From Melghirimyces profundicolus (lineage in GTDB: Bacteria; Bacillota; Bacilli; Thermoactinomycetales; DSM-45169): DNA of 64,000 bases. Positions 39,324 to 58,000 of this stretch are shown in pieces. The stretch is taken from positions 62,001 to 126,000 of the forward strand of contig NZ_QBKR01000004.1 in assembly GCF_003054245.1 (NCBI RefSeq). Direction: 5' to 3'. The position numbers were made by a program, and so were the translations under genes. Below the pieces are notes generated by a model. It did no database searches. It was given only the letters and a program-made list of their open reading frames with translations, and was not told the origin of the DNA. Numbering within the stretch: position 1 is the stretch's first letter; every line of letters begins with the position of its first letter.

Positions 39324-40016
39324 TTATAGATCAAAAGATTCACCCGGTTGGACGACCTGACCGTCCATGTTCTTTTCCTTCAGTTGACGGACAAAGGCGT
39401 CTGCATCCTGCTCGATCAAAGGAAAAGTGTTGTAATGCATGGGAACAACCTTCCGGGCGCCGACCCACTCGGCGGCGAGAAGGGCATCCTCCGGACCCAT
39501 GGTGAAATTGTCCCCGATGGGAAGCAATGCCAAGTCCACATCGTTCTGTGCTCCGATCAGTTTCATATCGGAGAAAAGGCCGGTGTCGCCGGCGTGATAG
39601 ATCGTTTTCCCGCCCAGAGTGAGAAGCAACCCGGCAGGCATCCCCAGATAAATGATTTCTTTCTTCTCTTCGTCGATAAAACCGGATCCGTGGAAGGCCT
39701 GGGTCAGTTTGACCCGACCAAAATCAAAGGAATGGGCACCCCCGATGTGCATCGGATGGACTTTCTCCACCCCTTGAAACCCGATCCAGTTGGCCAGCTC
39801 GAAGTTGGCAATGACCGTGGCATGATTGCGCTTGGCGATCTCAACGGTGTCCCCCACGTGGTCCCCGTGTCCGTGGGTCAGCAGGATATAATCGGTTTCG
39901 ATTTCCTCCGGTTTCGCTTTTGCAAGGGGATTATCCTTCAGAAACGGGTCGATGATCAGTTTGGTCCCCTCGTGATCAATTTCAAAACAGCTTTGTCCGT
40001 GAAAGGTGATATTCAT
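39324..40016 (-). CDS. ytkL: UPF0173 metal-dependent hydrolase YtkL
   Basis: Metallo-beta-lactamase-fold hydrolase of 230 residues. The metal motif [16 protein letters not shown], the [15 protein letters not shown] segment and [11 protein letters not shown] are those of the YtkL/UPF0173 group; substrate unknown. ATG follows GGAGGGATTCAC. The YlbF-like gene ends 33 bases upstream, so the two form a short operon. The gene is near ytoI and ytpI, as in B. subtilis. Confidence 0.92.
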
Positions 40017-40048: not shown

Positions 40049-40396
40049 TCAATTTTTATAGATTTCTTCCACCGGACCGCCCAGAATCCGGTTGATGTCC
40101 GACATCAGTTGTCCGAACCGTCTTTCCGCCTCCAGGTACTCCCGAAGCTCCGGATTGGAACGCATCTCTTCCATGAGCCGGTTCAGTTCTTCTTCTTTTT
40201 CTTCCCCCGGTGTTCTTCCCTGCATCTGAAGCGTCTGCAGTTCCATGGAAAGTTCTCTGAACCGTTCCATGGTCTGCCGTTGTTCTGGATCGCGGCTGAT
40301 CTTCTCCCATGCTTTCGCCAGTGCCTTCATTTCATTGGAACGGCGGAGCGCCCGGGCCAACTCATACGCCTTGTCATATGGATGTTCCACAGACAC
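40049..40396 (-). CDS. YlbF/YmcA-family protein
   Basis: 115-residue all-helical protein; the [20 protein letters not shown] start and [20 protein letters not shown] segment fit the YlbF/YmcA/YheA family. YlbF and YmcA form the Y-complex with YaaT that controls RNase Y and competence/sporulation in B. subtilis; this gene is a paralogue and its exact role is not clear. GTG start after GGGAGGG. First gene of the pair with ytkL. Confidence 0.75.
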
Positions 40397-40549: not shown

Positions 40550-40578
40550 CACCGCAAAATACATGCCCACATACTCTA
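40550..40578 (+). promoter_or_regulatory. candidate sigma-K promoter of the YheC/YheD cluster
   Basis: CACC (40550-40553) and CATACTCTA (40570-40578) with exactly 16 bases between them match the sigma-K consensus mACm-(16-17)-CATAnnnTA. It is 32 bases before the first ATP-grasp gene. Late mother-cell expression would suit coat-associated enzymes. Confidence 0.5.
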
Positions 40579-40609: not shown

Positions 40610-42040
40610 ATGGGGCACGCAAGAGTTGTTATCCAAGTCATGTCAGAAAGCCACTTCCCCCCTCATGCCAACATGATCATGAGCCAGTCTCTCGCCGACC
40701 GCCTCCGTCTTCCCAACCAACCGGTGTGGGTCACTCTGGGGATCGCCACGGACACCGCCTTCATCCAGCTGAGCCGCAACCCGAGCCCTCTCATCCGGAT
40801 CAGCTCCCGTTTGGCAGAACGGTTGAAAATCCAAAACCAGAAAACCCTGAACGTCCGGTACGATTCCCGTAACCGGCGCCTCCATTTCGGTCCCCTTCTG
40901 GGCGTTCTGATCAACCGGAATGTAGAAGGAAGCAACAAACAGCTGTTCGGACTCATGGCCCGTTTTTTGGAAGAGTGTGCCCTGGCATCAACGCAGAAAG
41001 GGGTCTGTCTGGTTGTTTTTCCTCCCGAGAACATCCACCTCGCCAGGAAAACCGTTCGCGGATGGGAGTACCGGGGCAACCAATGGCTCCAAACCGAGTT
41101 CCCCCTGCCCGATGCCATCTACAACCGGATCACGTCCCGGCGGATCGAGCGGCAGCCGGAGCTGCAGCAAAAGCTCCGAACCCTGAAAAACACCTGTCGC
41201 ATCCCCTTCTTCAACGAAACCTTTCTCAACAAACGCGAGGTTCACGAGCTGTTGATCCAGGATGAGAAAATGCACCGTCTTCTGCCGGAAACCCAACCGT
41301 ACCATCCGGCGAGGTTACGGAATATGCTGGAGAAATACGGTGTGGTCTACCTGAAGCCGACCAACGGGAGCCTCGGGCAGGGGATTATCCGGGTCACCGT
41401 GGCGGGGGGGAGATGGGTCTGTCAATACCCGGAGGCCTCACGGACCGTGACCCGGATGTTCCACCGTCGAAAAGAAGCGCTCAGACATCTCCGGCGCCGG
41501 GTTTCCCCTCGATACATCATCCAAAGGGGGCTCAATCTGGTCACCTGCGACGGCCGTCCCGTCGATTTCCGCGTCCTGGTCCAGAAAAACGGCAAGGGGC
41601 AATGGGCAGTCACATCCATCGTGGGGCGGATCGCCAACGACCAGGATATCGTATCCAACCTGGCCCGCGGCGGTACCCTCCGGAAAGCCGCAGACGTCCT
41701 GTCCTCCGTACAAGCGATCAACAAACCAACGATCCAGCACCTGCGTCAACGGGCCTTGGAAATTTCGCAAACCTTTGAACAGCTCTCCCAAGGACACTTC
41801 GCCGAATTGGGGGTGGACCTGGTTCTGGACAAAACGGGACACCTGTGGTTGATCGAACTCAACTCCAAGCCTTCCAAAACGGACGAAACAGTAACCAACC
41901 CCTCGACAGCCATCCGGCCATCCGTCAACCGGCTGATCGAATACGTTACGTATATCACTGGTTGGGCTCCCTGTCTGACGGCTCCCAACGCCGTTCCGAA
42001 ACCCCGGCGACCCGACCGAACCAGGAGGAAAAGGCGATGA
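40610..42040 (+). CDS. YheC/YheD-family coat-associated ATP-grasp protein 1
   Basis: 476 residues. N-terminal beta-rich domain (about 1-90), a linker that begins LGVLINRN, then an ATP-grasp fold: nucleotide-binding Lys and glycine loop in YLKPTNGSLGQGII (near residue 246), DFRVLVQKNGKGQW and the Mg2+-binding LWLIELNSKPSK (near 418). YheC/YheD proteins localise to the forespore and coat in B. subtilis; the fold predicts carboxylate-amine ligation but no substrate is known. ATG after GGAAGGGG. Its stop overlaps the next start (ATGA). About 20 C-terminal residues are very basic. First gene of a five-gene operon. Confidence 0.88.
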   Translation: MGHARVVIQVMSESHFPPHANMIMSQSLADRLRLPNQPVWVTLGIATDTAFIQLSRNPSPLIRISSRLAERLKIQNQKTLNVRYDSRNRRLHFGPLLGVLINRNVEGSNKQLFGLMARFLEECALASTQKGVCLVVFPPENIHLARKTVRGWEYRGNQWLQTEFPLPDAIYNRITSRRIERQPELQQKLRTLKNTCRIPFFNETFLNKREVHELLIQDEKMHRLLPETQPYHPARLRNMLEKYGVVYLKPTNGSLGQGIIRVTVAGGRWVCQYPEASRTVTRMFHRRKEALRHLRRRVSPRYIIQRGLNLVTCDGRPVDFRVLVQKNGKGQWAVTSIVGRIANDQDIVSNLARGGTLRKAADVLSSVQAINKPTIQHLRQRALEISQTFEQLSQGHFAELGVDLVLDKTGHLWLIELNSKPSKTDETVTNPSTAIRPSVNRLIEYVTYITGWAPCLTAPNAVPKPRRPDRTRRKRR

Positions 42041-43155
42041 GTCCGACTGTCTATACATTGGGGGTGATCAGCTGCCGGTCTGCGCAAAAGACGCCTCCGT
42101 TTCAGGAGACGGAGTACCTGAGGGCACTTACCAAGGAGGGAAAACCCCAGGGGATCCGGCTCATCACCTTCACGCCGATGGAGGTGGACTGGAACACAAA
42201 AGTTGTAACCGCCTGGAGGTATGACCTTTCCTCCGGGAAGTGGAAAAAGGAACGGCATCCCTTGCCTCCTTTGATTTACGACCGTTGTTATTATCTGAAT
42301 ACCCGACAATACCTTGCTTACAAACCATACGTCTCCCGGATCGCCCAGTGTCCGGGGGTCCAGCTGTTGGGAAAACCCCTGGGAGGGAAATTGCAAACCC
42401 ACGAGATGCTCCAAAAAAACCGATCGTTGGTGCCATACCTCTCTCCCACTTTCCGTCTTCGGTCCCCGACGGACATTCTGCTCGCCCTGGAGAAAAACAC
42501 ATCGGTCCTGATCAAACCCAACGGGGGGAGTCACGGGAGAGGCGTGGCGGCGATCACCCCCGAAGGAAGCTCGTACCGGGTGCGGGGTCGCTCCATAGCC
42601 AACCGGTGCTTCCACCTCTTGCTTCCTAAAAAAAAGGCGCTCATTCAGTGGGCACGCCGGTTTACCGGGCAAACACGATACATCATCCAACCGTATCTCC
42701 AACTGACCACAGGGGACGGAAGACCCTTCGATCTCAGAATTCTGGTCCAGAAGGATCAAAACGGCAGCTGGACCACCACGGGAATGGCTGTACGGACAGG
42801 AAACCCAAACTCGTTGACCTCCAACCTTCACGGAGGAGGCAAAGCGGAAAAGGCCCTTCCTTTTCTGAAAAAGCATTATCCTCCGACCATGGTATCGAAG
42901 ATTCTGGATTCCATTCGTTTTCTTTCCACCCACATACCCAAAGAAATCGAGAGACAACACGGGAGACTGCTGGAACTTGGACTGGATGTGGGAATTGACC
43001 GCCAGGGGCGGGTATGGTTTTTGGAAGCCAACTCCAAGCCCGGTCGAAGCGTTTTTCTTCTGACCGGCGAAAAGGAAATCCGGCGGCGTTCCGTTCAAAT
43101 GCCGGTGCAGTATGCCCTGAGCCTGTTCCGCAGTCTGACAGGAGGGTCGGTATGA
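42037..43155 (+). CDS. YheC/YheD-family ATP-grasp protein 2
   Basis: 372 residues, shorter than its neighbours because it lacks the N-terminal beta domain and starts at the pre-ATP-grasp segment YTLGVISCRS. ATP-grasp signatures: LIKPNGGSHGRGVAAI, FDLRILVQKDQNGSW and VWFLEANSKPGRS. AGGAGG precedes the ATG, and both ends overlap neighbours by four bases (ATGA), so translation is coupled along the operon. It could pair with protein 1 as a heteromer; this is inference. Confidence 0.87.
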   Translation: MSPTVYTLGVISCRSAQKTPPFQETEYLRALTKEGKPQGIRLITFTPMEVDWNTKVVTAWRYDLSSGKWKKERHPLPPLIYDRCYYLNTRQYLAYKPYVSRIAQCPGVQLLGKPLGGKLQTHEMLQKNRSLVPYLSPTFRLRSPTDILLALEKNTSVLIKPNGGSHGRGVAAITPEGSSYRVRGRSIANRCFHLLLPKKKALIQWARRFTGQTRYIIQPYLQLTTGDGRPFDLRILVQKDQNGSWTTTGMAVRTGNPNSLTSNLHGGGKAEKALPFLKKHYPPTMVSKILDSIRFLSTHIPKEIERQHGRLLELGLDVGIDRQGRVWFLEANSKPGRSVFLLTGEKEIRRRSVQMPVQYALSLFRSLTGGSV

Positions 43156-44528
43156 GCTCTGTGATCTGCCGTATTCAACCATCGGCCTCCGGAAGTCAGC
43201 ATGCTGTCGGACTGTCGCAACTCCTGATGAAGGAATGGGGATGTCAAAACGGCCAGTCCATCAAGCTTCGGATCGGCAGCAAAAGCATGATCACCCGGGT
43301 CATCGGTCTTCGAAGAAAAAAGTGTGTCATCGTCCTCTCCCGTTCGATTGCGGCTCAACTGAACCTCCCCTTCTTCGGAGAAACACGGGCCGCCTACCGC
43401 AACAAAGAACTGCGCCTTGGCCCGGTCCTCGCCATCCTGACCACCGGTTTTTCCGGATCGGGGATCACTCCTTTCGGGGCCCGGTCCGCTTTGTTCCGAA
43501 ATTTTTTGCTCGCGTCCAGAGAAGAACGGCCCTTTTTTTACGTATTTACCCCGGAGATGGTCGACTGGACCAACCAGGTGGTCTCGGGTTGGTTTTACCG
43601 GAAGGATGGATCCGGCACCTACCGCTGGATGCGCAGACCAGCCCCTCTTCCGGATGTGGTCTACGAACGGGTCCCCAACCGGAAAGCAGAAGCCGGAACC
43701 CCGGTGAAAAATTGTAAGGCCCGCCTGCAAGCCATCGGAAAGACCCGGATCTTCAACCAGGGTTTTTTCAACAAGTGGCAGGTTCACGAAGCCCTTTACA
43801 ACCACCCGCTTACCTTGGAAAGCATTCCCGAGGCGCACCGCTCTCCCACTGTGGAAACCATCCGCGATATGCTGGAGCGCTATAAGATGGTGTATCTCAA
43901 GCCCAGCGGGGGAAGTCTCGGGCTGGGCATCTCACGGATCACCCAGAGTCCGGACGGGGGGTACTATTGCCGGTTCCGGAACGGGGATCAAAACATCCTC
44001 CGCAAGTTCCGCGCCTTGAGTCCGCTCATGAAGCAGATGTTCGGACCGCAGATGAAACGGCTCCCCAGCTACATCGTCCAGCAGGGCATCCGGCTGATCA
44101 AATATCGGGGAAGCCCCGTCGATTTTCGCGTCCATATGCACAAAGACAGAATGGGAATGTGGAAAGTGGTCGGTCTCGGGGCGAAAGGAGCTGGAGCCGG
44201 GTGCGTCACCACCCATGGACGGACCGGCGGTTCTCTCCTGTCCGCCCAGGAGGTCCTGGCATATTGCTTTCCGGGTCAGGAGAAGGAGATGGAACACCGG
44301 ATCCGGGAAACTTCGATTCGGATCTGCACCGCTTTGGAGAACCGGGTTGGAAAACCGCTGGGCGAACTGGGACTGGACATCGGTGTGGATCAGAACCGGA
44401 GAATCTGGCTGTTCGAGGTTAACGCCAAGCCCGGCCGACATATTTTCAAGCATCCGTCCTTGGCGGAATCGGGAAGGCAATCCGCCCGATGCATCACGGA
44501 ATACTGTCTGAAACTGGCGCAATTTTAG
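43152..44528 (+). CDS. YheC/YheD-family ATP-grasp protein 3
   Basis: 458 residues with the N-terminal domain (about 1-95, including GQSIKLRIGSKSMITRVIGL) and the ATP-grasp part: YLKPSGGSLGLGISRI, VDFRVHMHKDRMGMW and IWLFEVNAKPGRHI. The basic residue in the VHMHKD motif differs from VLVQK of its paralogues, so substrate or nucleotide handling may differ. ATGA overlap with protein 2; GGAGGG upstream. Confidence 0.87.
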   Translation: MSSVICRIQPSASGSQHAVGLSQLLMKEWGCQNGQSIKLRIGSKSMITRVIGLRRKKCVIVLSRSIAAQLNLPFFGETRAAYRNKELRLGPVLAILTTGFSGSGITPFGARSALFRNFLLASREERPFFYVFTPEMVDWTNQVVSGWFYRKDGSGTYRWMRRPAPLPDVVYERVPNRKAEAGTPVKNCKARLQAIGKTRIFNQGFFNKWQVHEALYNHPLTLESIPEAHRSPTVETIRDMLERYKMVYLKPSGGSLGLGISRITQSPDGGYYCRFRNGDQNILRKFRALSPLMKQMFGPQMKRLPSYIVQQGIRLIKYRGSPVDFRVHMHKDRMGMWKVVGLGAKGAGAGCVTTHGRTGGSLLSAQEVLAYCFPGQEKEMEHRIRETSIRICTALENRVGKPLGELGLDIGVDQNRRIWLFEVNAKPGRHIFKHPSLAESGRQSARCITEYCLKLAQF

Positions 44529-44545
44529 AAGGGGGGAATGAGATT

Positions 44546-45874
44546 TTGAACTCCTTCCCGAAAACGGGATGGCTGGTCTTTACACCGGATGGAAACGGAC
44601 CGGTTTTTATTCCGCGGCGGAGGATCACCGGTACGGACGCCGCTGCTCCGGTGACCATGAACCTCGGGGCCCGTTTGAAAAAAACCGTATCCATCCGGCG
44701 AGCGAATAAAAAGTTCGTCCATCGCCCCCTGATGTGCCCGGCACGGTTGAAGGAAATTCAAGGGGGGGAATGGAAAGCGGGTCCTTTCATCGGAATCCTG
44801 ACTTCGGGAACGTTGAAAGGGTTTATGGGCAACCGGTCCAACTTTATCGACCTGATCCGAACGGGGCGGCGAATGGGGGTTACGATTTTTGTCCTCACCC
44901 CCGAAGGGTTGAAAGAAGGGGCCCATACTGTGCAGGGATTCCTGCTGAACCCGGGTGTCAATGGAAACCGCTGGGTGCCGGCCACTCTCCCGATCCCCGA
45001 TGTCGTCTACAACCGCATCCCCAGCCGCAAGCTGGAAAGCCGGGCCCAGGAACAAAAAATACTGGCCACGCTTTCCAACATGACCGGTGTCAGTCTGTTC
45101 AACCCGTCCTTCTTCAACAAGTGGACCCTCCATCTCCACATGCAACGCTCCCCCCGCCTGGCCCGTCTCCTTCCGGACACGGCTCGGTGGAACGGTGGGA
45201 AACTCCTGAAGGAAATGGTGACAAAACATTCCACGCTCTTTCTGAAACCCGTGGAAGGGAAAGCAGGACATGGAATGATCCGGGTGACCCGGAAAAACCG
45301 GGGCTTTGAAATCGTCTTTCAAACGCTTCAGGGCAAATATCATTACTTCGCCGGAAACCTGCAACAACTGAAGAAACGACTGATCCCCCTCACCCGGGAA
45401 AGGAATTACGTCCTCCAGCAGGGCATCGATCTGGCACGCTACGGGGGAAGCCCCTTCGATCTCCGTGTGCTGATGCAGAAGGACGGAACCGGACAGTGGA
45501 GCAACACCGGAATCGGAATCCGCGTCGCCGGCAAAGACGCGATCAGCACTCATGTCCCCATGGGCGGTTCCATCGCCGGCTCCCCGGAGGTGCTGAGAAG
45601 CCTTTTCGGTTCACAGGCCCCGGCCATCACAGCAACCATCCAATCGACCTCCCTGGAGATCGCTTCCCATCTTGAACAGGAAGAAGGCAAAAATCTGGGG
45701 GAGATCTCGATGGACCTGGGGATGGAAAACGACGGCCGGCTCTGGTTTTTCGAAGCCAACGCCAAACCGATGAAGTTCGATGAACCGGATATCCGGAAAC
45801 GCTCCCTTCAGCGCCTGATCCAATATTTTCTGTACCTCAGCGGGTTTGCCGGCGACGACCGGAGAGGGGGCTGA
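44546..45874 (+). CDS. YheC/YheD-family ATP-grasp protein 4
   Basis: 442 residues, N-terminal domain then ATP-grasp signatures FLKPVEGKAGHGMIRV, FDLRVLMQKDGTGQW and LWFFEANAKPMK. A TTG start (LNSFPKTGW) nine bases after AAGGGGGG is chosen; an ATG 19 codons earlier overlaps protein 3. Sequence is diverged from the other three, so the cluster is an old duplication and not recent tandem amplification. Four bases separate it from the GNAT gene. Confidence 0.86.
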   Translation: MNSFPKTGWLVFTPDGNGPVFIPRRRITGTDAAAPVTMNLGARLKKTVSIRRANKKFVHRPLMCPARLKEIQGGEWKAGPFIGILTSGTLKGFMGNRSNFIDLIRTGRRMGVTIFVLTPEGLKEGAHTVQGFLLNPGVNGNRWVPATLPIPDVVYNRIPSRKLESRAQEQKILATLSNMTGVSLFNPSFFNKWTLHLHMQRSPRLARLLPDTARWNGGKLLKEMVTKHSTLFLKPVEGKAGHGMIRVTRKNRGFEIVFQTLQGKYHYFAGNLQQLKKRLIPLTRERNYVLQQGIDLARYGGSPFDLRVLMQKDGTGQWSNTGIGIRVAGKDAISTHVPMGGSIAGSPEVLRSLFGSQAPAITATIQSTSLEIASHLEQEEGKNLGEISMDLGMENDGRLWFFEANAKPMKFDEPDIRKRSLQRLIQYFLYLSGFAGDDRRGG

Positions 45875-45878
45875 TATC

Positions 45879-46361
45879 ATGGTCCGCGTCGTGTCGATCC
45901 ACCCCGCCCTCTTCCGTCGACTTCGACCGGCCATCGTCCGCTTTTCCCAACGGTACGGGGACCGGCGCATCACCCACCGCGCCCTGAGGTGGCTGAAAAA
46001 CCTGAACGCAAATCCTTTTCCGGAGGGGACCTGGATGGCGGCCGCCATTGACGGAAAAAAATTGGTGGGATTCATCCTTTTCGGCTCCTACGGCCTGGAG
46101 GAAGCTTACATCGTTGTCCATCCGGGCCACCGGAAGCGAAAAGTGGGCGAATCGTTGTTGGAGCAGGCATTGAGTTCCCTGGACCGGATCTACACCCGGG
46201 TCGCCTGCGACAATATCCCCAGTCTGAAACTCTGCTTCAAATCGGGGCTGGTGGCCTTCCACCTGATCACCGGCCCCACCGGTAAGCCCACCCTTTGTCT
46301 GGGGGGCGGCAACTGGAAGGCGGAAGAATTCCGCAAACACGGTGAAGTTGATGAACCATGA
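45879..46361 (+). CDS. GNAT-family acyltransferase
   Basis: 160-residue protein with the acetyl-CoA-binding beta4-alpha3 region EEAYIVVHPGHRKRKVGESL (about 75-94) and a beta5 bulge VACDNIPSLKLCFKSGLVAF, both GNAT features. Substrate unknown. It follows the four ATP-grasp genes by four bases and is followed by a terminator, so it belongs to their operon and may acylate the same amine acceptors. AGGGGG precedes the ATG. Confidence 0.83.
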   Translation: MVRVVSIHPALFRRLRPAIVRFSQRYGDRRITHRALRWLKNLNANPFPEGTWMAAAIDGKKLVGFILFGSYGLEEAYIVVHPGHRKRKVGESLLEQALSSLDRIYTRVACDNIPSLKLCFKSGLVAFHLITGPTGKPTLCLGGGNWKAEEFRKHGEVDEP

Positions 46362-46367
46362 TCTGCC

Positions 46368-46400
46368 TCCTTTCCCCTCCGACGGGAAAGGGGATTTTTT
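46368..46400 (+). terminator. terminator of the YheC/YheD-GNAT operon
   Basis: CCTTTCCC/GGGAAAGG stem with an 8-base loop, followed by GGATTTTTTA, just after the GNAT stop codon. Confidence 0.8.
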
Positions 46401-47270: not shown

Positions 47271-47951
47271 TTAGACATACGATCGGTAATTCTCGCTTCG
47301 AGCAATGATTTTGCAATATCTCAGCCCTTTTTCATCCTTTTCTTTCCAAGTGTGTGTCCGTTTGTTTTTTCGTCTGATGGAAACATAATAATATCTATCT
47401 GTTGAGTAAATCTTATATCCTTTCCTGCGAAGCCTTTGTTGAAATATGATGTCTTCACCCAGCGTTCGTGCTGGAAACTGTACATGAGGAAACACATTTT
47501 TTTTAAATACAAACGTGCCCCCGCCTACATGATTTGTATACCGGTTTTGTTTATGGGGTCTAAATACAGCGATCAGCTTTTTTCCTTCAAAATAGGTGGT
47601 ATGTGCGTCTTTCCCTACCAATGAAGCGCGTGTGGTTTTTAAAGCATGCACTGCCTGAGTTAAATATTTTGGTGCGTAGTAATCATCGTCATCAAATTTT
47701 GCGATGAAGGAATACCTGGCTTTTCTGATCCCGAAATTAAGACACACCCCCAAAGGGACCCCTGGTATTTGATAAACACGAACATTATTAAAATTTTTCG
47801 CCATCTGCAACCATCTGTGGAGGTCCATGTTTTTTCGGTTTAAGATAATGATCAGCTCTTTTTTCTTAAACATTTGTCTGGCATAGTTCTCGTAAACATT
47901 GTGTATTTGATTGGGCCTTATTGTACAGGTGATCACCGAAACGCCTTCCAT
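47271..47951 (-). CDS. Family 2 glycosyltransferase (intact duplicate)
   Basis: 226-residue short GT-A glycosyltransferase. N-terminal VSVITCTIRPNQIHNVYENY, the nucleotide-sugar/metal segment FIAKFDDDDYYAPKYL with its Asp run, and acceptor-domain VGGGTFVFKKNVFPHVQFPA, ending in a basic tail. ATG after AAGGAG. It is a tandem duplicate of the gene just upstream (about 75 percent identical by eye) and is the intact one. Low GC compared with the flanks suggests transfer. Confidence 0.88.
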   Translation of the reverse strand: MEGVSVITCTIRPNQIHNVYENYARQMFKKKELIIILNRKNMDLHRWLQMAKNFNNVRVYQIPGVPLGVCLNFGIRKARYSFIAKFDDDDYYAPKYLTQAVHALKTTRASLVGKDAHTTYFEGKKLIAVFRPHKQNRYTNHVGGGTFVFKKNVFPHVQFPARTLGEDIIFQQRLRRKGYKIYSTDRYYYVSIRRKNKRTHTWKEKDEKGLRYCKIIARSENYRSYV

Positions 47952-48669
47952 CTACATTAACTCCTTTTTTGCATAAGATTTGTAATCCACTGTGCGGGAA
48001 ATGATTTTACACTCTCTCAGCACTTTCTCATCCGTTCCTTTCCACGTGTGTGTCCGTTTGTTTTTTCGCCTGATGGAAACATAGTAATATCTGTTAGTTG
48101 AATAGATCTTATATCCTTTCTTGCGAAGCCTTTGTTGAAATATGATGTCCTCACATAGATTTCGATCTGGAAACATAACATAAGGAAAAACATTTTTTTT
48201 TGAATACCATTGTACCCCCGCCTAAATGAGGTCCAGGCATCTTAATCTCATACAAAAATTTGCTTTCATGATGGGGTTTCCTGATGGCGAGTGTTTTCAT
48301 ATTTTTGAAATAGGTGACAGTTCCCCCTTTCCCTACCATTGAAGCGTTCGTTGTTTTTAAAGCATGCACAGCTTGATTTAAATATTCTGGGGCATAGTAA
48401 TCATCATCATCAAATTTTGCGATGAAGGGGTATCTTGCTTTTCTGATCCCGAAATTGAGACAGGCTCCCAATGTAGCCCCAGGTATTTGATAAACACGAA
48501 CATTCTTATATTTTTTTGTTACCTGCTGCCATTGGAGGAGGCTCATGTTTTTTCGGTTTAAGATAATGATCAGCTCTTTTTTTCTAAACATTTGATTGAC
48601 GAAATTCCTGAGAATATTGTGTATCTGATTTGGCCTAATCGTACAAGTGATCACCGAAACACCTTCCAT
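47952..48669 (-). pseudogene. Family 2 glycosyltransferase, frameshifted duplicate
   Basis: Paralogue of the gene at 47271. The first 165 codons or so (48669 down to about 48190) read like the intact copy through GGGTMVFKKK, then the frame breaks; the rest (CEDIIFQQRLRKKGYKIYST to the end) continues in another frame. The break is in a run of nine A on the coding strand at about 48193-48201; the intact paralogue has eight A at the same place. So a one-base insertion, a slippage site, or a sequencing error. ATG after AAGGAG. Confidence 0.85.
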
Positions 48670-48809
48670 TTTATTTAACTCCTTCAGATGTTAGTTAATG
48701 GCTTCACACCCTCAGTATTATCGGATTGAATCTGTCGGTCCGGATTGCTCGCGCAGTATGCTGTTGGATAGTTGCCGGCAGAGAGCTGTGCGTATCGGAA
48801 ACAGCAGGT

Positions 48810-49889
48810 TCAGATTCCCCATTGTATCGGTAGACCCGCTTCACTCCAAAAGACCTCCTCCCAATACCTTGTCATCCTGGTTCCCCATTGAACACACAAC
48901 TCTGAGGAATGAATGGGAATCTCTTTTGCCACCTTTACTGCCAAATAAGGCAGGTTAACGCCGGCCGCTGTGCAATGTACAATGGTTCCTTGTATCCGGG
49001 GATTGATTTCGATAATTTTAGGTTGTGTGTCTTTATCCCTACATATTTGCACGCCGATATTCCCATGCAAACGAAGTTCTCTGACAATACGCGAAGCATA
49101 AGCAATCACATCATCTTCTTTAACGATTGTACTTTTGACGGAAATCCCGTTGACGATCGCTTCCCTCAACCTTGGAATCGCAATAATGACTTCCCCGTCT
49201 CTGGCCAATAGATCAATACTGTATTCTTCACGGGGAAGATATTCCATGACAATCGTCTCCGGAATCACCGAGCAATCGCTCAAAATACGAAAGAGTTCGT
49301 GATCACTGATATACGCGGAATTGGGCTTTTCATTGAAGAGTGGATTCAAACGATTTTTTTGCGTATCGAGAATGCGAAATCCCCTGCTTCCATCGGAAAC
49401 CACTGGTTTAAAACATACTGGATGATCAGGGTATCCCAATTCATACAGCGCTTTGCGTAATCCTTCCACTGAATTGACAATCACAGATCGGGGAGTAGGA
49501 ATCCCTTTCTTCTTCAGGGTGTGGATTAAGGTTCCTTTATTCATCACTTGCATCACACGATTGTATTCGGAAACGGAAACTACGGTCCCTATCTCCTTGA
49601 AACGGTGGAGATACTTTGCAAACCGGGGTAACTCCTTGGATACCAAAGGGAGAATGATATCCACGTTCTCAGCTGAACACAAACTTATAAGTCTTGGAAC
49701 AAAGTCAGGTTCCGCGGCCTCGGGGCCGATGAAAAATTTGTCAACCATGACCTGGCCGACCGCATGGGGATTTATATCGATCCCGATAATACGAAAATCA
49801 TATTCCTTGACGGCCCGCAGAGATTTAATCACTCCTGGAGCTCCTGGGGAACCCACCCCCGTCAGGAGAACCGTCATCGGTTTTGGCAT
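48810..49889 (-). CDS. PylC/CarB-like ATP-grasp enzyme
   Basis: 359-residue ATP-grasp protein: pre-ATP-grasp Rossmann part with VLLTGVGSPGAPGVIKSLRA at the start, an ATP-binding Lys in CFKPVVSDGSRGF (near 165), and the metal ligand segment PKIIEINPRIQGTIVHCTAA. This layout is that of carbamoyl-phosphate synthase large-chain-like and PylC-like ligases, often in spore or capsule glycan loci. It is unrelated in detail to the YheC/YheD proteins. ATG (MPKPMTVL) with AGGGGGA upstream. It is the first gene of the minus-strand group that leads to the glycosyltransferases and phosphatase. Confidence 0.82.
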   Translation of the reverse strand: MPKPMTVLLTGVGSPGAPGVIKSLRAVKEYDFRIIGIDINPHAVGQVMVDKFFIGPEAAEPDFVPRLISLCSAENVDIILPLVSKELPRFAKYLHRFKEIGTVVSVSEYNRVMQVMNKGTLIHTLKKKGIPTPRSVIVNSVEGLRKALYELGYPDHPVCFKPVVSDGSRGFRILDTQKNRLNPLFNEKPNSAYISDHELFRILSDCSVIPETIVMEYLPREEYSIDLLARDGEVIIAIPRLREAIVNGISVKSTIVKEDDVIAYASRIVRELRLHGNIGVQICRDKDTQPKIIEINPRIQGTIVHCTAAGVNLPYLAVKVAKEIPIHSSELCVQWGTRMTRYWEEVFWSEAGLPIQWGI

Positions 49890-50058
49890 TTGCAATATCC
49901 CCCTGTTCGGCTCATAGTACATACTCATGGTACATAATAGAAAAAATATCAGATGTTGATTGGACTACAGTTAATTTGGTTTATTAACCAGGGCATTTCT
50001 AACACACCATACCCTCGTATTCGCAATATATTATTGTAATAGAATCGGGGGTGAAAAG

Positions 50059-50757
50059 ATGGGAGCAATCCAATACAACCAACAAAAAGTGCTTATTTTA
50101 GCCCCTCATGCAGATGATGAAATCATCGGATGTGGGGGAGTGATTCAAAAATATTTAAAGAGTAACAGTATCGTCCGGATCGTTATTGCGTCGTTCGTTA
50201 AAGGGAAAAGCCAAAAGTATGATACAGATACAAATAAATATGTAATTTATGATGGCAATGTCCGTTTAAATGAATTGAACAAATCACATGCCATATTGGG
50301 GATTAAAGATTACTGCTTTTTATATACAGATGAGGAAACAGAACAGTATCACAGTCGGTTGGATATGATTCCCAGAGTTGAATTGGCATCCAAGATAGAA
50401 AAAGAAATCGAAAGCTTTCATCCCACTGTGGTTTATATCCCCAGCAAAACAAAACATCAGGACCATACCGCTCTTCATCGAGCTGCCTTGACGGCAACCC
50501 GACCCTATTATTGGAACGGATCGGTCATTATTTATGAAACGGACGGAGAGATTGGTTTCCAACCTCATCTGTACATCCCGATGAGTTCAGAGGAAGCAGA
50601 AAAAAAAGCAGACGCATTAAATATATATAAAACTCAATTGGGAACCAAGCGACATCCCATCAATCCGGAGTCTCTACTGACCAAAGCGAAGTTCAGGGGA
50701 CAGTCGATTTACCGTGATTATGCGGAAGCATTCCAAATTTTCAGGCTGCATGGATAA
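50059..50757 (+). CDS. PIG-L/LmbE-family deacetylase
   Basis: 232-residue zinc amidase fold. The metal motif LAPHADDEIIGCGG (Pro-His-x-Asp-Asp at about residues 15-19) and the HQDHTALHRAALTA third ligand region are clear. Family members remove acetyl from N-acetylglucosamine-type sugars in glycolipids, mycothiol and bacillithiol precursors. Placed between an ATP-grasp enzyme and a glycosyltransferase it may deacetylate a sugar, giving an amine for ligation. GGGGGTG precedes the ATG. Low-GC codon use, like the island around it. Confidence 0.9.
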   Translation: MGAIQYNQQKVLILAPHADDEIIGCGGVIQKYLKSNSIVRIVIASFVKGKSQKYDTDTNKYVIYDGNVRLNELNKSHAILGIKDYCFLYTDEETEQYHSRLDMIPRVELASKIEKEIESFHPTVVYIPSKTKHQDHTALHRAALTATRPYYWNGSVIIYETDGEIGFQPHLYIPMSSEEAEKKADALNIYKTQLGTKRHPINPESLLTKAKFRGQSIYRDYAEAFQIFRLHG

Positions 50758-50980
50758 CCAAGAGCACACTTAATATACTGAAAGATTTAAGCCTTCAGGG
50801 GGTAATGGAGTGAACAGCCGCGTGTTCCTCGAAACATATGCTAATGTCCACCTTTAATCCAAAGGGCTGTTCCGACATCTCTCTAGCAGAGGGTTGGGTG
50901 TACCGTGGGGCACATTGGCTGGCCAACTCCACCACGGTCGCGATGTCCCCCTTCGAAATGGGAACCAGCAGGGATCATTT

Positions 50981-52144
50981 TTAAGTGCGTCCTTTGCTTG
51001 ACGAATGGATTCGGTAATAGAATCTGGCGTACTGACGGGCGGTATGATCCCATGAAAAACTGCGTTCAGCCAAAAGACGGCCATTTCTGCCCAGCCGCTC
51101 TCTTAAAGCGGAGTTCGCCGAAAGATGCAGGATGGCGTCTGTTAACTCATGTTTTAAACGAGAGGGTTTGATCAGGATGCCGTTCACTCCTGTTTTTACC
51201 GTTTCCCGAATACCGCCGATGGCGGTGGAGATGACGGGCTGGCCCGAAGCCATCGCCTCCAAATTCACCAATCCCAAAGCTTCCGGTCCGATTGAGGGAG
51301 TGACCACCAGGTCCGCCAATGCGTAATACCGGGGCATCTTCGTTGGATGGATGGTTCCGGTGAACCGGACGTGCGGGTGGATCGACCGCGCCATCTGTTT
51401 CAATTTCCTCACATACCGCGTTTCCCTGTTTGAACCATATCGGCTCCCGCCGGCCACCATGCAGAGAATCCGTGGATCCTGTTTTACCGCTTTGATGATG
51501 GATTCCAGCAATAGGTGGACGCCCTTGATCGGAATCAGCCGGCCCGCGAACAGAATCACGGTCCGACCCGTTACAACGAAGCGGGAACGGAGGCGGCAGC
51601 GAATGCGTTTTCCCTTCTCGCTCCAACGAGATATATAATCTCCTGTGTCCACCCCCAGATGCACGGGGCGGACGGGGGTGGACGTCCTGTAACGGGACAA
51701 GAGGAGTGACCGGAGATAATGGCTGTTGGTCAGGATGAGATCGGCGCTGTTCAGACAGTCTTGTGGTTTCCGACCTCCCAACGCGAGGGGATTCAAAAAC
51801 AATAGGGAATGCATACCGAGCAAAACGGGGCAGGGCAACCGTTTTTTGAGAAGAGGGACGAACGCAGGCCGGTTCTCCACCTGGACGATGTCATGGGGGA
51901 ACTTTTTCAGATACCGAATGCAGGAATGAAGATAACTTCTTTGCGAGGTGTCTTCCAACCGGATATACGTGACGCGATTCCTTGTCTCCTTGTCTTTCAA
52001 CCCGGGAAAACGTTTTCCCAGTACCGTTACGTTCCAGTGTGCAGGCAATCTGCCCGCAATATTCGTGATCGCCGTTTCCACTGAACCACCGCCATATTGA
52101 ACCGGGACGGGGAAACTTCCCGGACTGATGAAAGCGATCCGCAT
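50981..52144 (-). CDS. CotSA-like family 4 glycosyltransferase
   Basis: 387-residue GT-B glycosyltransferase. N-terminal MRIAFISPGSFPVPVQYGGG, then the acceptor domain and the donor domain with LFAGRLIPIKGVHLLLESI and the donor-binding signature PSIGPEALGLVNLEAMASGQ, where the EALG-x6-E pattern is seen. The overall pattern resembles the B. subtilis spore-coat protein CotSA. ATG after GGGAGGAG; a long in-frame upstream extension is not coding. Divergent from the fifth YheC/YheD gene. Confidence 0.87.
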   Translation of the reverse strand: MRIAFISPGSFPVPVQYGGGSVETAITNIAGRLPAHWNVTVLGKRFPGLKDKETRNRVTYIRLEDTSQRSYLHSCIRYLKKFPHDIVQVENRPAFVPLLKKRLPCPVLLGMHSLLFLNPLALGGRKPQDCLNSADLILTNSHYLRSLLLSRYRTSTPVRPVHLGVDTGDYISRWSEKGKRIRCRLRSRFVVTGRTVILFAGRLIPIKGVHLLLESIIKAVKQDPRILCMVAGGSRYGSNRETRYVRKLKQMARSIHPHVRFTGTIHPTKMPRYYALADLVVTPSIGPEALGLVNLEAMASGQPVISTAIGGIRETVKTGVNGILIKPSRLKHELTDAILHLSANSALRERLGRNGRLLAERSFSWDHTARQYARFYYRIHSSSKGRT

Positions 52145-52325
52145 ATAGCCGTCTCCTCCCCCTGGGAATTTCCTGTATTGTATGTGGCGACCAAATCGGT
52201 TGTTCACACCGGCGAATCCCCCAATTGAACGGCCATTCTCCCTTTTTTGGACGGAAGTCCAGGCATCCTCCCTCCCTGGTAATATAATAAGTATCAATTT
52301 AGTCTGATGGGGAGAGGGTACTGGA

Positions 52326-53390
52326 ATGAACCGTTCAAAAAACGTGGGAATTTTGTTGTCGTCACAACTATTGCACCGCATTCGCGCCGATCTTGCCACG
52401 CATGAACGGGCGAAACTCTATTTTCAGTTCGGGAAGCGGCTAGGGTTGCAGCCCATACTCTTTGACCTCAGGGGTCTTGACCTGACGAACCGCCGGATCA
52501 GGGGCTATGTCTGGCATCCGACTTTCCGGAGTTATATTCCTGTTCACCGTCCTCTTCCCCCTGTTGTGCACAGCCGTGTGCTGGGGTATTCGCGGAAGTT
52601 GACCCGTCTCTCACAGAAGATGGGGAAGCGGTTGTTCAACCCACCGGTCCGACGCGATAAAGTATTCATTCATCGATTACTGTCCCGAAATACAACGGTT
52701 CGGCCCCATCTACCAGCTATGATACCGTTAACGGAAACCACGAAAGCAGTCACGTGGATCGATAAGTACCCTGTGGTTTTTATCAAGCCTGTGATCGGCT
52801 CACTGGGTCATCACATCATCCGGATCGAAAATATGGGGAAGAAATCCTTTCTTGTTCATCCATATAGAGGCAAGAAAACCCGGATGTCCGCCTCCGGATT
52901 GGCCCGATACCTGGGAACCCTCAAACAACGACGCTACTATATTCAGCAGGGTATACCGCTGGCCCGTTTCAACGGGGCTCCTTTTGACTTTCGGGTTTCT
53001 GTTCAGAAAGGGCGTTTCGGAAGATGGGAAATCAGCGGGATCGCGGCGAAAGTGGCCAGGGAACAAAGCCATATGACTAACATAGCCCAAAACGGGAAAG
53101 CGATGAGGGCCTGGACCGCGCTCAACCGTTGCTTTCCTAAGCAACGAATCCAAGCCATCCTCAATCGGATTTCCCACCTCTCCATAGCAACCTGCCAAGA
53201 GTTGGAGAAAACCTGGCCCGCATTCGCTGATGCCGGGTTAGACGTCGGGATCGATCAAAAGGGGCGCCCCTGGTTAATCGAAGTCAATTTTCGTGATTTA
53301 CGCATCATTTTCCCATTAGCCGGTGACAAAAAAATGTTTCATAGGACGTATCTTAATCCCCTTTATTATGCTGCCTTCCTCCGCCATTAA
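52326..53390 (+). CDS. YheC/YheD-family ATP-grasp protein 5
   Basis: 354 residues, the short form without the N-terminal beta domain. Starts VGILLSSQLLHRIRADLATH. ATP-grasp signatures: FIKPVIGSLGHHIIRI, FDFRVSVQKGRFGRW and PWLIEVNFRDLR. The loop has His-His in place of the second glycine, and the usual N-(S/A)-K-P after the metal Glu is N-F-R-D, so activity or substrate may differ from the four clustered copies. GGGGAGAGG precedes the ATG. It is monocistronic and divergent from the CotSA-like gene. Confidence 0.86.
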   Translation: MNRSKNVGILLSSQLLHRIRADLATHERAKLYFQFGKRLGLQPILFDLRGLDLTNRRIRGYVWHPTFRSYIPVHRPLPPVVHSRVLGYSRKLTRLSQKMGKRLFNPPVRRDKVFIHRLLSRNTTVRPHLPAMIPLTETTKAVTWIDKYPVVFIKPVIGSLGHHIIRIENMGKKSFLVHPYRGKKTRMSASGLARYLGTLKQRRYYIQQGIPLARFNGAPFDFRVSVQKGRFGRWEISGIAAKVAREQSHMTNIAQNGKAMRAWTALNRCFPKQRIQAILNRISHLSIATCQELEKTWPAFADAGLDVGIDQKGRPWLIEVNFRDLRIIFPLAGDKKMFHRTYLNPLYYAAFLRH

Positions 53391-54754: not shown

Positions 54755-55036
54755 AAAATCCTCTCCCTGATTCAATGATGGAATCTATTTCCATCTTTTC
54801 TTTTTTCTCGCAGCTGGATGACCGTTAACCCAGTGAACAGGGACAGTATAGCACAAATCGCGGTATCTACCCATCCCGCGTTCACTTTTTGTGGGTCGTC
54901 ACTTTCCCTTCGACTCCCCCCGACTGAGCTTCACTCCCTCTTTTCCCTGCCTTCAGCAGAAGCCCAGTTTCGCTTCTTCGGGTTTCCGCTTTTATGCATG
55001 ATGAATATACCTATTCAGAGAGCACATAGGAAAGGG

Positions 55037-58000
55037 ATGATATCCTTGCATCGAAGAAAAAGGGGGTACCGGAAACCTCCAAAAAACCGTCAACCGGCAG
55101 ATGAACGAATTCTGGATCAACTCTCGGCGGATGAACGAATTCTGGATCAACTCTCGGCGGATGAACGAACCCTGGATCAACACTTTCATAAAGAGGAACA
55201 AAAACTGAAGAACCTTGAAACAGAAAAGCCGGCCGTAGATCACCCGCCTCAAGCGGAAGAAAATATTTCCACAGAAAAAGACGGGGGATCAGCGGTCCAC
55301 CCGGAAGATCCCGACCGTCAAAGCGCCGGGCCTGTCCAAAACAACAAGACAAAGACACCAGCGGCCGCCAAACAACGGCAATCCGACTCCAAAGGTGACA
55401 AACCGGGGTCCCGTTCATCCGGTGAGTGGAAGAAATTGAAGGAGAACCGTCTCCATGGCCGTTCCAGTAAAGCATTCATCCATACCGGGGACCTGGCGGA
55501 CGGGTTGATCACCCACGAAAAACTGGGGAAAAACTCCGTTGACAGCACCAATCTGCAGCCGGGGGCGGTGGAATCCAAACACCTGAAAAACCAGGCGGTT
55601 GACTCTTCCAAGCTGGTCTGGCACGCGGTCACCTCCTCCAAACTGGCGGAAAAATCCGTGAAAAAACATCATCTGACGGAAGGTTGCATCGGACCCGAAC
55701 ACATCGGGAACGAAGCCATCCAAGGTCATCATTTCGGCGAAAACAGCATTGACGGAACCCGCCTCAAAGACGACAGCATCGACGGTGCCAAATTGAAAGA
55801 TCATTCGGTGCAGGCCTGGCACCTCGCCCCCGAGCAGATTACCGAAAAACACCTGGCCGATGAGTCCATCGACGGAGATAAGCTTAAAAGCGGATCCGTC
55901 CACACCCGCCATTTGGCCAACAAAGCCGTCGACCACTCCAAGCTGGGGCCCGGGGCAGTGAGCACCGACAACCTGCAGGATGAATCGATCACGGAAGACC
56001 AACTGGCCGAAAACGCCGTCACCTCCGACAAGATCGCCCCGAATACCATTCAGGGCACGCACATCGAAGAAAATGCAATCGGGGAACACCACCTTGAACC
56101 GGAATCCGTCACAAGGGAAAAACTGGCTCCGGAATCCGTGGAAAACGATCATATTCGTCCAGGTACCGTTGGAGAAAGACATCTGAGTCCTTCCTCCATC
56201 AACACGCAGCATCTCCAGGATCACAGCATCACGGCGGAAAAGATGGCCGTTGATTCAGTCGGGGGTTCGATCATCCGGCCACAATCCATCGACGGTTCGC
56301 ACTTGATCAACGATACGGTGGAAGAAGAACACCTGAAGGATGGGGCCGTGACCCGGAAAAAAATCGCCCCGCGCTCGGTTCAGGCGAGGATGCTGGACCT
56401 GGACAGCGTCCGCCCGGAACATTTGACAGAACAATCCGTGCAGGAACAGCACCTTGCATACCAATCCATTCACAGCAGACACCTGCGGGACGGTTCGGTA
56501 AAAGAGCAACATCTCGCTGATTCCTCCATCAACGGGAACAAATTGGCCGACCGTTCCGTGACCACATCCAAACTCTCCCCGGAAAGCATCTCAACGGACA
56601 AATTAACGGACTTTGCCGTTCAGTCCCCGAAGCTGGGAAACAAATCCGTTACCGGGGAAAAGTTGGCTCCCCGCAGCGTGGACAGTCATCACCTGAGGGA
56701 GGATGCCGTGACGGAAACCCACCTGGCCGATGGTTCCGTTTTTTCGGGCCATATTCGTGACGGGCAAATCCTGCGGAACCACCTGGCCAATCAGGCGGTC
56801 CATTCCCGGCAGCTGGCCGATGAAGCGGTCAGGGAAGCCCACCTGAAGAAAGGCTCCGTCAACGGGGATCACCTGAAAGAGAACAGCGTCAAGGGCTCCC
56901 ATCTCTCCCATGACTCCGTTTCTTCCTCCCACCTCCGGGAGCACGCGGTGCAGAACCGTCATCTTGAAGAGGAGTCTGTCACGTCGGAGAAAATCGCCAA
57001 TGCATCGGTTCACTCCCGGCATATTGAGGTGGATCAGGTGAACGGGTCCCACTTGGCAGAAGGCTCCGTCGTCTCCAGCCACCTCGCTCCCGGCAGTGTC
57101 AACGGAGAGAAAATCCAAGAAGAAGCCATTTCCTCCCATCATATCGGTGAAGGGCAAATCAAGCAAAATCATCTGGATGATCAGGCGGTTCATTCCCAAC
57201 ACCTGGCCGATGAGTCCGTAAATGAATCCCATCTGAAAAAAGGTTCCGTCAACGGGGATCATTTGAGAGAAAACAGTATCAACAGCCCTCATCTTGCAAC
57301 TGATTCCGTCGCCCCCACCCACCTTCGCAACTACTCGGTGCAGAGTCGTCACTTGGAAGATGAATCCATCACATCGGAAAAGATTGCCGATGCGTCGATC
57401 CACTCCCAACACATCGACTCGGCACAGATCACGGGGTCCCATCTGCAGGAAGGATCGGTTACCTCCGGTCACCTTGCCTCCGGCAGCGTCAACGGGGAAA
57501 AACTCGGAGAGGGAGCCGTTTCTTCCCGTCATATCGGTGACGGGCAAATCAGGCGGAATCATCTATCCGACCAAGCGGTGTATTCCCACCATCTGGCCAA
57601 TGAATCCATCGAAGCATCCCATCTGAAAAAAGGCACCGTCAATGGGGGGCATATAAAAGAAAAAAGTGTCAACGACACCCACCTCACAACCGAATCCGTC
57701 GCCTCCACCCACCTTCGCAATCATGCGGTGCAAAGTCGTCACCTGGAAAATGAATCCGTCACATCGGAGAAAATCGCTGAGGAATCGGTCCAATCCCGCC
57801 ACATCGACTCGGCACAGATCACGGGAGCCCATCTGCAGGATGGGTCGGTTGCCTCCGACCACCTTACCTCCGGCAGCGTCACCGAAGATAAGATCGGGAA
57901 CGGAGCGGTTTCCTCCCGCCATATCGGCGAGGAGCAGATCATGCGGAATCATTTGTCCGACCAGAGCGTGCATTCCCGGCAATTGGCAGACGACTCCGTC

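Follow-up and report, generated by a model that had tools for sequence, protein, structure and literature searches.

Bacillus subtilis carries two genes of the YheC/YheD type, yheC and yheD, in a locus with yheA and yheB as neighbours. A role in the spore wall was reportedly predicted for this family of ATP-grasp enzymes by Iyer et al. in 2009 (Mol Biosyst). In the parts of the published reports drawn on here, YheC is counted among the spore coat proteins and described as ATP-binding (PMC7352945), and YheD is localised to the coat, where it surrounds the spore as a shell and interacts strongly with itself; its only partner in a two-hybrid study was YheD, and its function was termed unknown (PMC7911427). 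According to the sections used of a further report, yheC and yheD are sigma-E genes activated by SpoIIID (PMC517825). A literature search over titles and the openings of abstracts gave no mention of a four-gene set of such ligases, and the literature so covered yielded no substrate, product or activity for them.

The window analysed here is a stretch of 64,000 nucleotides from Melghirimyces profundicolus, in which positions 40610 to 46361 hold an operon of four PF14398 (YheC/YheD-type) ATP-grasp ligase genes, A to D, and a GNAT gene (Table 1). A first-pass annotation had described ligase genes that overlap by ATGA or lie less than 20 bases apart, with the GNAT gene last, and the gene coordinates confirm this: ATGA overlaps are found at A/B and B/C, and the gaps are 17 bases between C and D and 4 bases between D and the GNAT gene. 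The stem behind the operon was the first of 10 sites in a terminator scan, and because 8.8 such sites are expected in shuffled sequences, it is credible by its position alone.

Table 1. Coordinates of the operon and adjacent features in the window
Feature	Position	Strand	Description
ytkL-type metal-dependent hydrolase	39324..40016	-	NCBIfam NF001911/PRK00685, E 3.5e-98; flanking, outside the operon
yheA-type YlbF/YmcA-family gene	40049..40396	-	PF06133, E 6.8e-28; divergent neighbour of A
Sigma-K-like promoter	40550..40578	+	CACC 40550-40553, 16 bases, CATACTCTA 40570-40578
Ligase A	40610..42040	+	476 aa; PF14398; predicted N-terminal double-psi-barrel-type domain, about residues 1-100
Ligase B	42037..43155	+	372 aa; PF14398; without N-terminal domain
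Ligase C	43152..44528	+	458 aa; PF14398; predicted N-terminal double-psi barrel, residues 1-90
Ligase D	44546..45874	+	TTG start, 442 aa; PF14398; N-terminal domain diverged or partial
GNAT acyltransferase	45879..46361	+	160 aa; last gene of the operon; PF00583, E 1e-07, above cut-off
Terminator-like stem	46367..46393	+	10 pairs and a T run; directly 3' of the GNAT gene

All four ligases match PF14398 with E-values from 1.4e-71 to 4.3e-77 and 241-259 bits (curated cut-off 26.8), and the GNAT protein passes the cut-off of PF13508 as well as that of PF00583. Ligase A also lies above the Pfam cut-off for TTL (PF03133). The profile of sugar-transfer-associated ATP-grasp proteins, PF14397, is a weak second match that passes its cut-off in A only. 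A search with the NCBIfam profiles, including the models for RimK, LysX and GshB, gave no name above cut-off for A-D or the GNAT protein. The ATP-binding Lys-Gly loop and the Glu-x-Asn motif, which the first-pass annotation held to be kept in all four ligases, are invariant in an alignment of A-D, and the catalytic residues are invariant or nearly so within each orthologous group. Residues K208, K249, Q305, D319, R321, D403, N418 and P421 (A numbering) do not vary across the 233 rows of the four groups; aspartate takes the place of E399 in 2 of 50 C rows and of E416 in 3 of 67 B rows. Judged by these residues, the four diverged ligases have intact active sites. The N-terminal domain stands out in A and C (probability 99.5 in a profile comparison) and is missing from B, whereas D matches the domain of C with a probability of 93 over 54 columns. 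Because the domain of D is diverged or partial, the suggested alternation of subtypes with and without an N-terminal beta domain is only approximate.

A structure model was made of one operon protein, ligase C, with a pLDDT of 93.2. Although searching the PDB with the C sequence gave no credible relative, residues 91-458 of the model compared best with RimK (5zct; Z 22.6, rmsd 3.1 over 276 residues), followed by LysX/ArgX (Z 20.5), GshB (20.4), PsnB (18.2) and TTLL6 (18.1); Foldseek places the model near Ddl too. The N-terminal domain is similar to a designed double-psi barrel (7dvh; Z 10.3, rmsd 2.1 over 82 residues) and to Cdc48 (8das; Z 10.2, rmsd 2.3 over 82). The model therefore predicts for C a fold resembling RimK, LysX/ArgX and TTL, to which a double-psi barrel is added. 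Identity to RimK and LysX/ArgX is about 15-18%, and since the RimK, LysX/ArgX and TTL chains start at model residue 90-92, they are without the N-terminal barrel of C. Graspetide (microviridin-type) ligases such as PsnB, predicted from the same comparison to share the fold of C, act on a peptide carrier. No graspetide-style precursor peptide gene was recognised among the recurring neighbours of at least 80 aa at 60 array loci, and a word search of the main text of a graspetide survey (PMC8939145) found no mention of YheC or YheD.

The co-conservation that had been predicted for the four-gene set turned out wider than expected, extending over the family, much of a sample of the class and three genomes outside it. 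The order A-B-C-D-GNAT occurs in 10 of 10 family genomes; in each of them a GNAT orthologue adjoins the array, with 62-74% identity in the nine relatives. Among 80 named loci, in which C is present by construction, A-B-C-D are directly consecutive in 77; of the remaining three, one shows two B frames, and contig ends interrupt the other two. The test for A-B-C-D was passed by 45 of 60 chosen class loci, window included, whereas 15 failed it, some of them holding only two or three ligases. Outside the class, all five genes are found in order at three loci (L290, L294 and L295; A-B gap about 1.4 kb), and 9 of the 12 arrays fetched there have other make-ups. The GNAT gene, found in 38 of the 80 named loci, is less constant than the ligases. 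This conservation of gene order excludes chance for the operon.

In a tree of whole proteins from 16 chosen cassettes, A, B, C and D each form one clade, with supports of 99/96, 100/100, 99/93 and 100/99, respectively. The well-supported positional clades indicate that A-D are ancient, separately kept enzymes, and the window cassette is neither recent nor peculiar to the M. profundicolus genome. The whole-protein tree was used in place of one built from profile-cut ATP-grasp domains, where two branches were very long, four rows had less than half of the columns filled and the groups needed 2-3 changes. In the first tree, where group B was weakly supported (71), five wrong-strand rows with X at stops (own_L008, L009, L012, L015 and L018) and a 118-aa fragment (own_L016) were not counted as orthologues, and own_L005 (27 aa) dropped out. 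The long-kept order suggests that the four ligases and the acyltransferase jointly build or modify some spore component.

By its yheA- and ytkL-type neighbours, the window operon appears to correspond to the B. subtilis yheCD locus. In profile searches a ytkL-type gene was found near the array in 28 of 60 loci and a yheA-type gene in 26. A yheB-type group, one checked member of which is DUF445, lies near 22 of the 60 arrays; none was seen in the window. In one reduced locus (L123), a pair of B-type and C-type genes adjoins yheA. Thus YheC and YheD share with the arrays both the Pfam family and the kinds of neighbours (yheA and yheB types), but B. subtilis has two genes where the window has four and a GNAT gene. 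Further downstream in the window, at 47271-53387, a glycosyltransferase gene, a PIG-L gene and additional ATP-grasp genes are found.

Promoters of the sigma-K type have an AC-type -35 element and a CATAnnnTA -10 element, and the window promoter fits this pattern in both elements and in spacing. The promoter claimed by the first-pass annotation is real as a conserved motif: the block is conserved within the family, and with upstream regions anchored on the ATP-grasp domain, 31 of 59 loci, the window counted, show the motif ahead of A with a spacer of 16, loci of other families among them. The same motif at other spacers occurred in 0 to 2 loci, except for 5 at spacer 21; a second set of loci gave 19 of 78. 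Sigma-E-type patterns occurred in 1 and 3 of 60 loci (shuffled means 0.18 and 0.61), and a sigma-70 promoter scan of the window gave nothing relevant. Upstream of own-genome paralogues the sigma-K-like motif was seen in 1 of 15 regions, and the promoter claim is therefore restricted to the array. The window spacing also agrees with the promoter gap of 15 +/- 1 bp given in the part used of PMC517825, but the sigma-E and SpoIIID control described there for B. subtilis yheC and yheD differs from the sigma-K-like promoter of the window. The proposed late-sporulation timing may hence fail for the family as a whole.

SpoIVA is present in 86 of 87 PF14398-positive genomes of the class, compared with 8 of 34 without PF14398. 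This co-occurrence, together with the coat localisation published for YheD in the part of that report used here, supports a link of the ligase set to the spore. Little is understood of the spore coat, a chemically resistant structure, and a ligase set that is kept in order beyond one class with its active sites intact points to an undescribed covalent spore modification.

On balance, we consider it probable that the operon encodes a mother-cell ligase set which attaches amino acids or amines to a carrier in the spore envelope, with the GNAT enzyme modifying the product or the carrier. For the carrier, the product, the amines and their order, as for the role of the GNAT enzyme, we infer the following. 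Ligases A-D would be four ATP-grasp carboxylate-amine ligases produced in the mother cell at sporulation; each would convert a carboxylate with ATP to an acyl phosphate and couple it with the amino group of an amino acid or of a small amine, as in RimK, LysX/ArgX and TTL. The most likely acceptor would be a spore-envelope protein or peptide, in the coat. The carrier or a partner may be held by the double-psi barrel of A and C and possibly by its remnant in D, B would act without a barrel, and the GNAT enzyme could acylate a free amine on product or carrier. Because four lineages have been kept separately, they probably serve different groups or positions rather than being spare copies. No carrier gene was recognised among the genes of at least 80 aa in the operon or its constant neighbours at the 60 loci. 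A free small molecule or short non-ribosomal peptide, such as a spore pigment, protectant or metal ligand N-acylated by the GNAT enzyme, would need no protein carrier, and several ligases and a GNAT gene in one operon would suit such a pathway, as would the nearness of the C model to GshB and Ddl, makers of free peptides. However, the top-ranked folds, RimK and LysX/ArgX, are those of enzymes whose substrate is a protein or carrier protein. The array neighbours that recur, few groups of which are named by Pfam, included no conspicuous gene for a transporter or for amino-acid modification, and YheD, in the part used of PMC7911427, remains on the spore as a shell; we regard a free product as rather unlikely.

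It is very unlikely that the target of the ligases is a spore-surface polysaccharide whose uronic or other acid groups they would amidate with amino acids or amines. The PF14397 match and the sugar genes near the operon would fit such a target, but those genes are absent from the groups recurring at 6 or more array loci, and a coat layer of YheD would suit a protein better than the outermost sugar layer. The self-interaction of YheD and its lack of other two-hybrid partners, as described in the same part of PMC7911427, make a structural role possible, in which the proteins would mainly be self-assembling shell parts of the coat with ATP-grasp chemistry used or lost. Since a purely structural role fails to explain why nearly all members of the four groups across the class sample retain their catalytic residues, this appears the least probable of the readings considered. 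The spore-envelope ligase set also has a more elaborate form: an ancient ordered machine might attach amino acids or small beta-type amines to a coat carrier as a defined chain, capped by the GNAT enzyme, as part of a spore-specific, family-wide amine coating. As a whole this is improbable; if true, spores would carry non-protein groups that have not been looked for, and family members would use beta-alanine, 2-aminoethylphosphonate and other amines made by dedicated enzymes encoded nearby.

Neither the 139 array loci nor the surroundings of the window operon contained a gene matching PanD or the phosphonate proteins AepX, Y and Z at E <= 1e-10, so the clue to the amines comes from paralogues and not from the operon. 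Lysine-aminomutase-type genes lie beside 2 of 10 non-canonical copies (G007 and G003), and no link is claimed. Short PF14398 paralogues repeatedly adjoin genes for the biosynthesis of beta-alanine and 2-aminoethylphosphonate, a setting that would also suit a free product and that makes the substrate question of YheC/YheD-type enzymes assayable with named amines.

The five-gene operon of four PF14398 (YheC/YheD-type) ATP-grasp ligases, A to D, and a GNAT acyltransferase spans window positions 40610-46361, with all genes on the plus strand. The A/B and B/C junctions are ATGA overlaps, and the remaining intergenic gaps are 17 bases (C/D) and 4 bases (D/GNAT). In a profile search the ligases scored 241-259 bits against PF14398 (ATPgrasp_YheCD; cut-off 26.8), and the GNAT passed the cut-offs of both PF00583 and PF13508. 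Over the alignment, identity to A is 28-31% for the other three ligases, B to D. The first-pass annotation had located and described the operon correctly apart from one domain: its division of the ligases into those with and without an N-terminal beta domain is only approximate, as D has a diverged or partial one.

Features of the operon and of related loci (L, fetched loci; G, sampled genomes; others, window positions)
Feature	Position	Strand	Family
Ligase A gene	40610-42040	+	PF14398
Ligase B gene	42037-43155	+	PF14398
Ligase C gene	43152-44528	+	PF14398
Ligase D gene, TTG start	44546-45874	+	PF14398
GNAT gene	45879-46361	+	PF00583, PF13508
Terminator-like stem, 3' of GNAT gene	46367-46393		
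Ligase beside extra panD	L232:9417-10593; L235:6596-7700; L237:6769-7931; L238:12654-14149		PF14398
Further ligase-beside-panD loci	L250, L251, L253, L254, L255, L264, L266, L269		PF14398
PF14398-flanked genes for 2-aminoethylphosphonate synthesis	L228:388-8008; L238:3554-9088; PEP mutase with downstream ligase also in G001, G003, G004		
KamA-like gene	L238:10797-11915		
KamA-like gene, split between frames	G003:C1:2833612-2834497		

In 10/10 family genomes, four consecutive PF14398 genes stand at near-constant spacing beside a GNAT gene, the GNAT identity being 62-74% in the nine relatives. Among the best 80 matches to query C (the named loci, where C is present by construction), 77 have the direct order A-B-C-D and 38 have a GNAT; the three non-conforming loci are one with two B frames and two cut by contig ends (L148 and L205). 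Genera represented include Marinithermofilum, Thermoflavimicrobium, Seinonella, Shimazuella, Polycladospora, Baia, Thermoactinomyces, Brevibacillus, Ammoniphilus, Paenibacillus and Cohnella, and many Paenibacillus-type loci have an additional B-type ligase that follows either D or the GNAT. A set of 60 closely read loci comprised the window, nine family relatives and 50 loci hand-picked from strong matches. Here the order A-B-C-D occurs at 45, with the GNAT directly after D at 35 of them (window included in both counts), and the remaining 15 have shorter or different ligase sets. Of 12 arrays fetched from outside the class, 3 (L290, L294 and L295) have the order A-B-C-D-GNAT, with an A-to-B distance of about 1.4 kb, and the other nine have other gene combinations, one of them consisting of about ten tandem PF14398 genes (L296, G164:C3:94500-114000).

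In a 247-row tree the ligases group largely by position, with clade supports of 84 (A), 71 (B), 99 (C) and 90 (D). A second tree, built on the 64 proteins of 16 chosen cassettes, of which three come from beyond the class, gave one clade per position (A 99/96, B 100/100, C 99/93, D 100/99). Thus, A to D are old paralogues whose separateness and order have been maintained, an argument for four distinct functions. Catalytic residues K208, K249, Q305, D319, R321, D403, N418 and P421 (A numbering) are identical in 233/233 rows of the four groups, while E399 is replaced by Asp in 2/50 C rows and E416 in 3/67 B rows.

The predicted structure of C (33 sequences; mean pLDDT 93.2, pTM 0.89) has RimK as the closest fold to residues 91-458 (Z 22.6, rmsd 3.1, 276 residues), followed by LysX/ArgX, GshB, PsnB, TTLL6 and TTL. 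In RimK, LysX and TTL, it is established that ATP phosphorylates a carboxylate, which is attacked by an amine to form an amide. Residues 1-96, predicted as a separate model (pLDDT 88), resemble the designed double-psi barrel 7dvh (Z 10.3, rmsd 2.1, 82 residues) and the Cdc48/VCP N-domain (8das; Z 10.2, rmsd 2.3, 82 residues), and a profile comparison places the same domain in A (probability 99.5). Because the Cdc48 N-domain docks partners, a docking role for the N-terminal double-psi barrel of C is a fair inference.

Upstream of the operon lie two divergent genes, one of the YlbF/YmcA type (yheA type) and one for a PRK00685-type hydrolase. Among the 60 array loci, a yheA-type neighbour recurs at 26 and a YtkL-type neighbour at 28, and a yheB-type group, whose one checked member is DUF445, is near 22. 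The operon therefore corresponds to the B. subtilis yheCD locus, judging by the gene order there. In one relative (L123), the locus is reduced to one B-type and one C-type gene beside yheA. Elsewhere in the window, two alike family-2 glycosyltransferase genes stand in tandem on the minus strand (47271-47951 and 48151-48669, the shorter latter one apparently truncated), adjoining an ATP-grasp_Ter gene (48810-49928) and a PIG-L gene (50059-50757). A candidate open frame of 1380 codons (54818-58960, plus strand) has no Pfam match; similar frames occur at 11/60 array loci, window counted.

The sigma-K-like motif [AC]AC[AC]-N16-CATAnnnTA starts 60 bases upstream of A. When the spacer was varied from 10 to 23 over 59 loci and 78 named loci, sets with partly common genomes, spacer 16 was found at 31 and 19 loci, respectively. 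Other spacers gave 0-2 loci each except spacer 21 (5 and 3), where at least some loci have an overlapping second AC. A similar scan found 30/60, against a mean of 0.38/60 in Markov-shuffled regions. Upstream of a fifth PF14398 gene (52326-53390, plus strand, 354 aa), which lies outside the operon and the four lineages, the motif was not found. A 16-base gap fits the spacing that PMC517825 reports for sigma-K. That paper also lists B. subtilis yheC and yheD as sigma-E genes activated by SpoIIID, which counts against the sigma-K reading.

The class sample of 121 genomes contains PF14398 (E <= 1e-45) in 87 and SpoIVA (E <= 0.001) in 94. SpoIVA is present in 86/87 PF14398 genomes versus 8/34 others (Fisher p 2e-18, kinship not corrected), one of these eight having it only as weak pieces. 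In the phylum sample, the counts are 29/31 with PF14398 (E <= 1e-30) versus 58/70 without. PF14398 is thus nearly limited to SpoIVA genomes in these samples, yet dispensable for some of them. According to PMC7911427 and PMC7769602, YheD is SpoIVA-dependent, forms rings and then a shell, and interacts with itself.

It is somewhat more likely than not that A to D modify a carrier in the spore envelope, differing in amine or site, and that the GNAT then acylates the modified product. ATP would phosphorylate a carboxylate, and amine attack would then yield the amide. A free small molecule as the product appears rather unlikely; that the ligases modify a polysaccharide is improbable, and a structural role marginally more so. 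The PF14398 family, its fold and the coat location of relatives are already known. In the literature searched, which did not include the key earlier analysis of Iyer et al. 2009, neither the conserved cassette of four ligase slots plus GNAT nor its promoter footprint was mentioned, and the same holds for the barrel domain and the links to amine genes.

A clue to the amine comes from paralogues, the window's genome having 18 PF14398 matches at E <= 1e-40. Short PF14398 paralogues adjoin panD, whose product, aspartate decarboxylase, makes beta-alanine. Within the family, a PF14398 match lies within 80 bases of 7/9 extra panD copies versus 0/10 canonical ones (Fisher p 7e-4); two of these seven have a stop inside. 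The panD copies of L237 and L238 are frame-broken, and G050, G086 and G096, genomes whose panD is fragmented or frame-broken, were excluded from the counts. Outside the family, PF14398 lies within 500 bases of 7/17 second panD copies and at 1452 bases from one more, while the other nine, eight of them from family f10, have none in about 3 kb. Nor was any found within about 3 kb of 20 canonical copies, including 13 from outside the family (second versus canonical, p 0.002, kinship not corrected). At L269 the genome's sole panD is 59 bases from a PF14398 gene. The panD-adjacent ligases are mostly short, with two instances in the window's genome, and their placement strongly hints that beta-alanine is a substrate.

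In five family genomes, a gene for PEP mutase (E 1e-61 to 1e-63) is followed, some 2.4 kb downstream, by a PF14398 gene in the same orientation, which accounts for 5/5 of the family's PEP mutases of this type; no PF14398 was found near six other members of the PEP mutase Pfam with E < 1e-40. The intervening genes, read in G000 and G007, belong to the phosphonopyruvate decarboxylase and 2-aminoethylphosphonate aminotransferase types, the G000 copies being named by NCBIfam. Neither panD nor 2-aminoethylphosphonate genes were found in the arrays, so they are evidence for PF14398 family chemistry and not directly for A to D. KamA-like (lysine or glutamate aminomutase-type) radical SAM genes also occur among PF14398 paralogues in two genomes.
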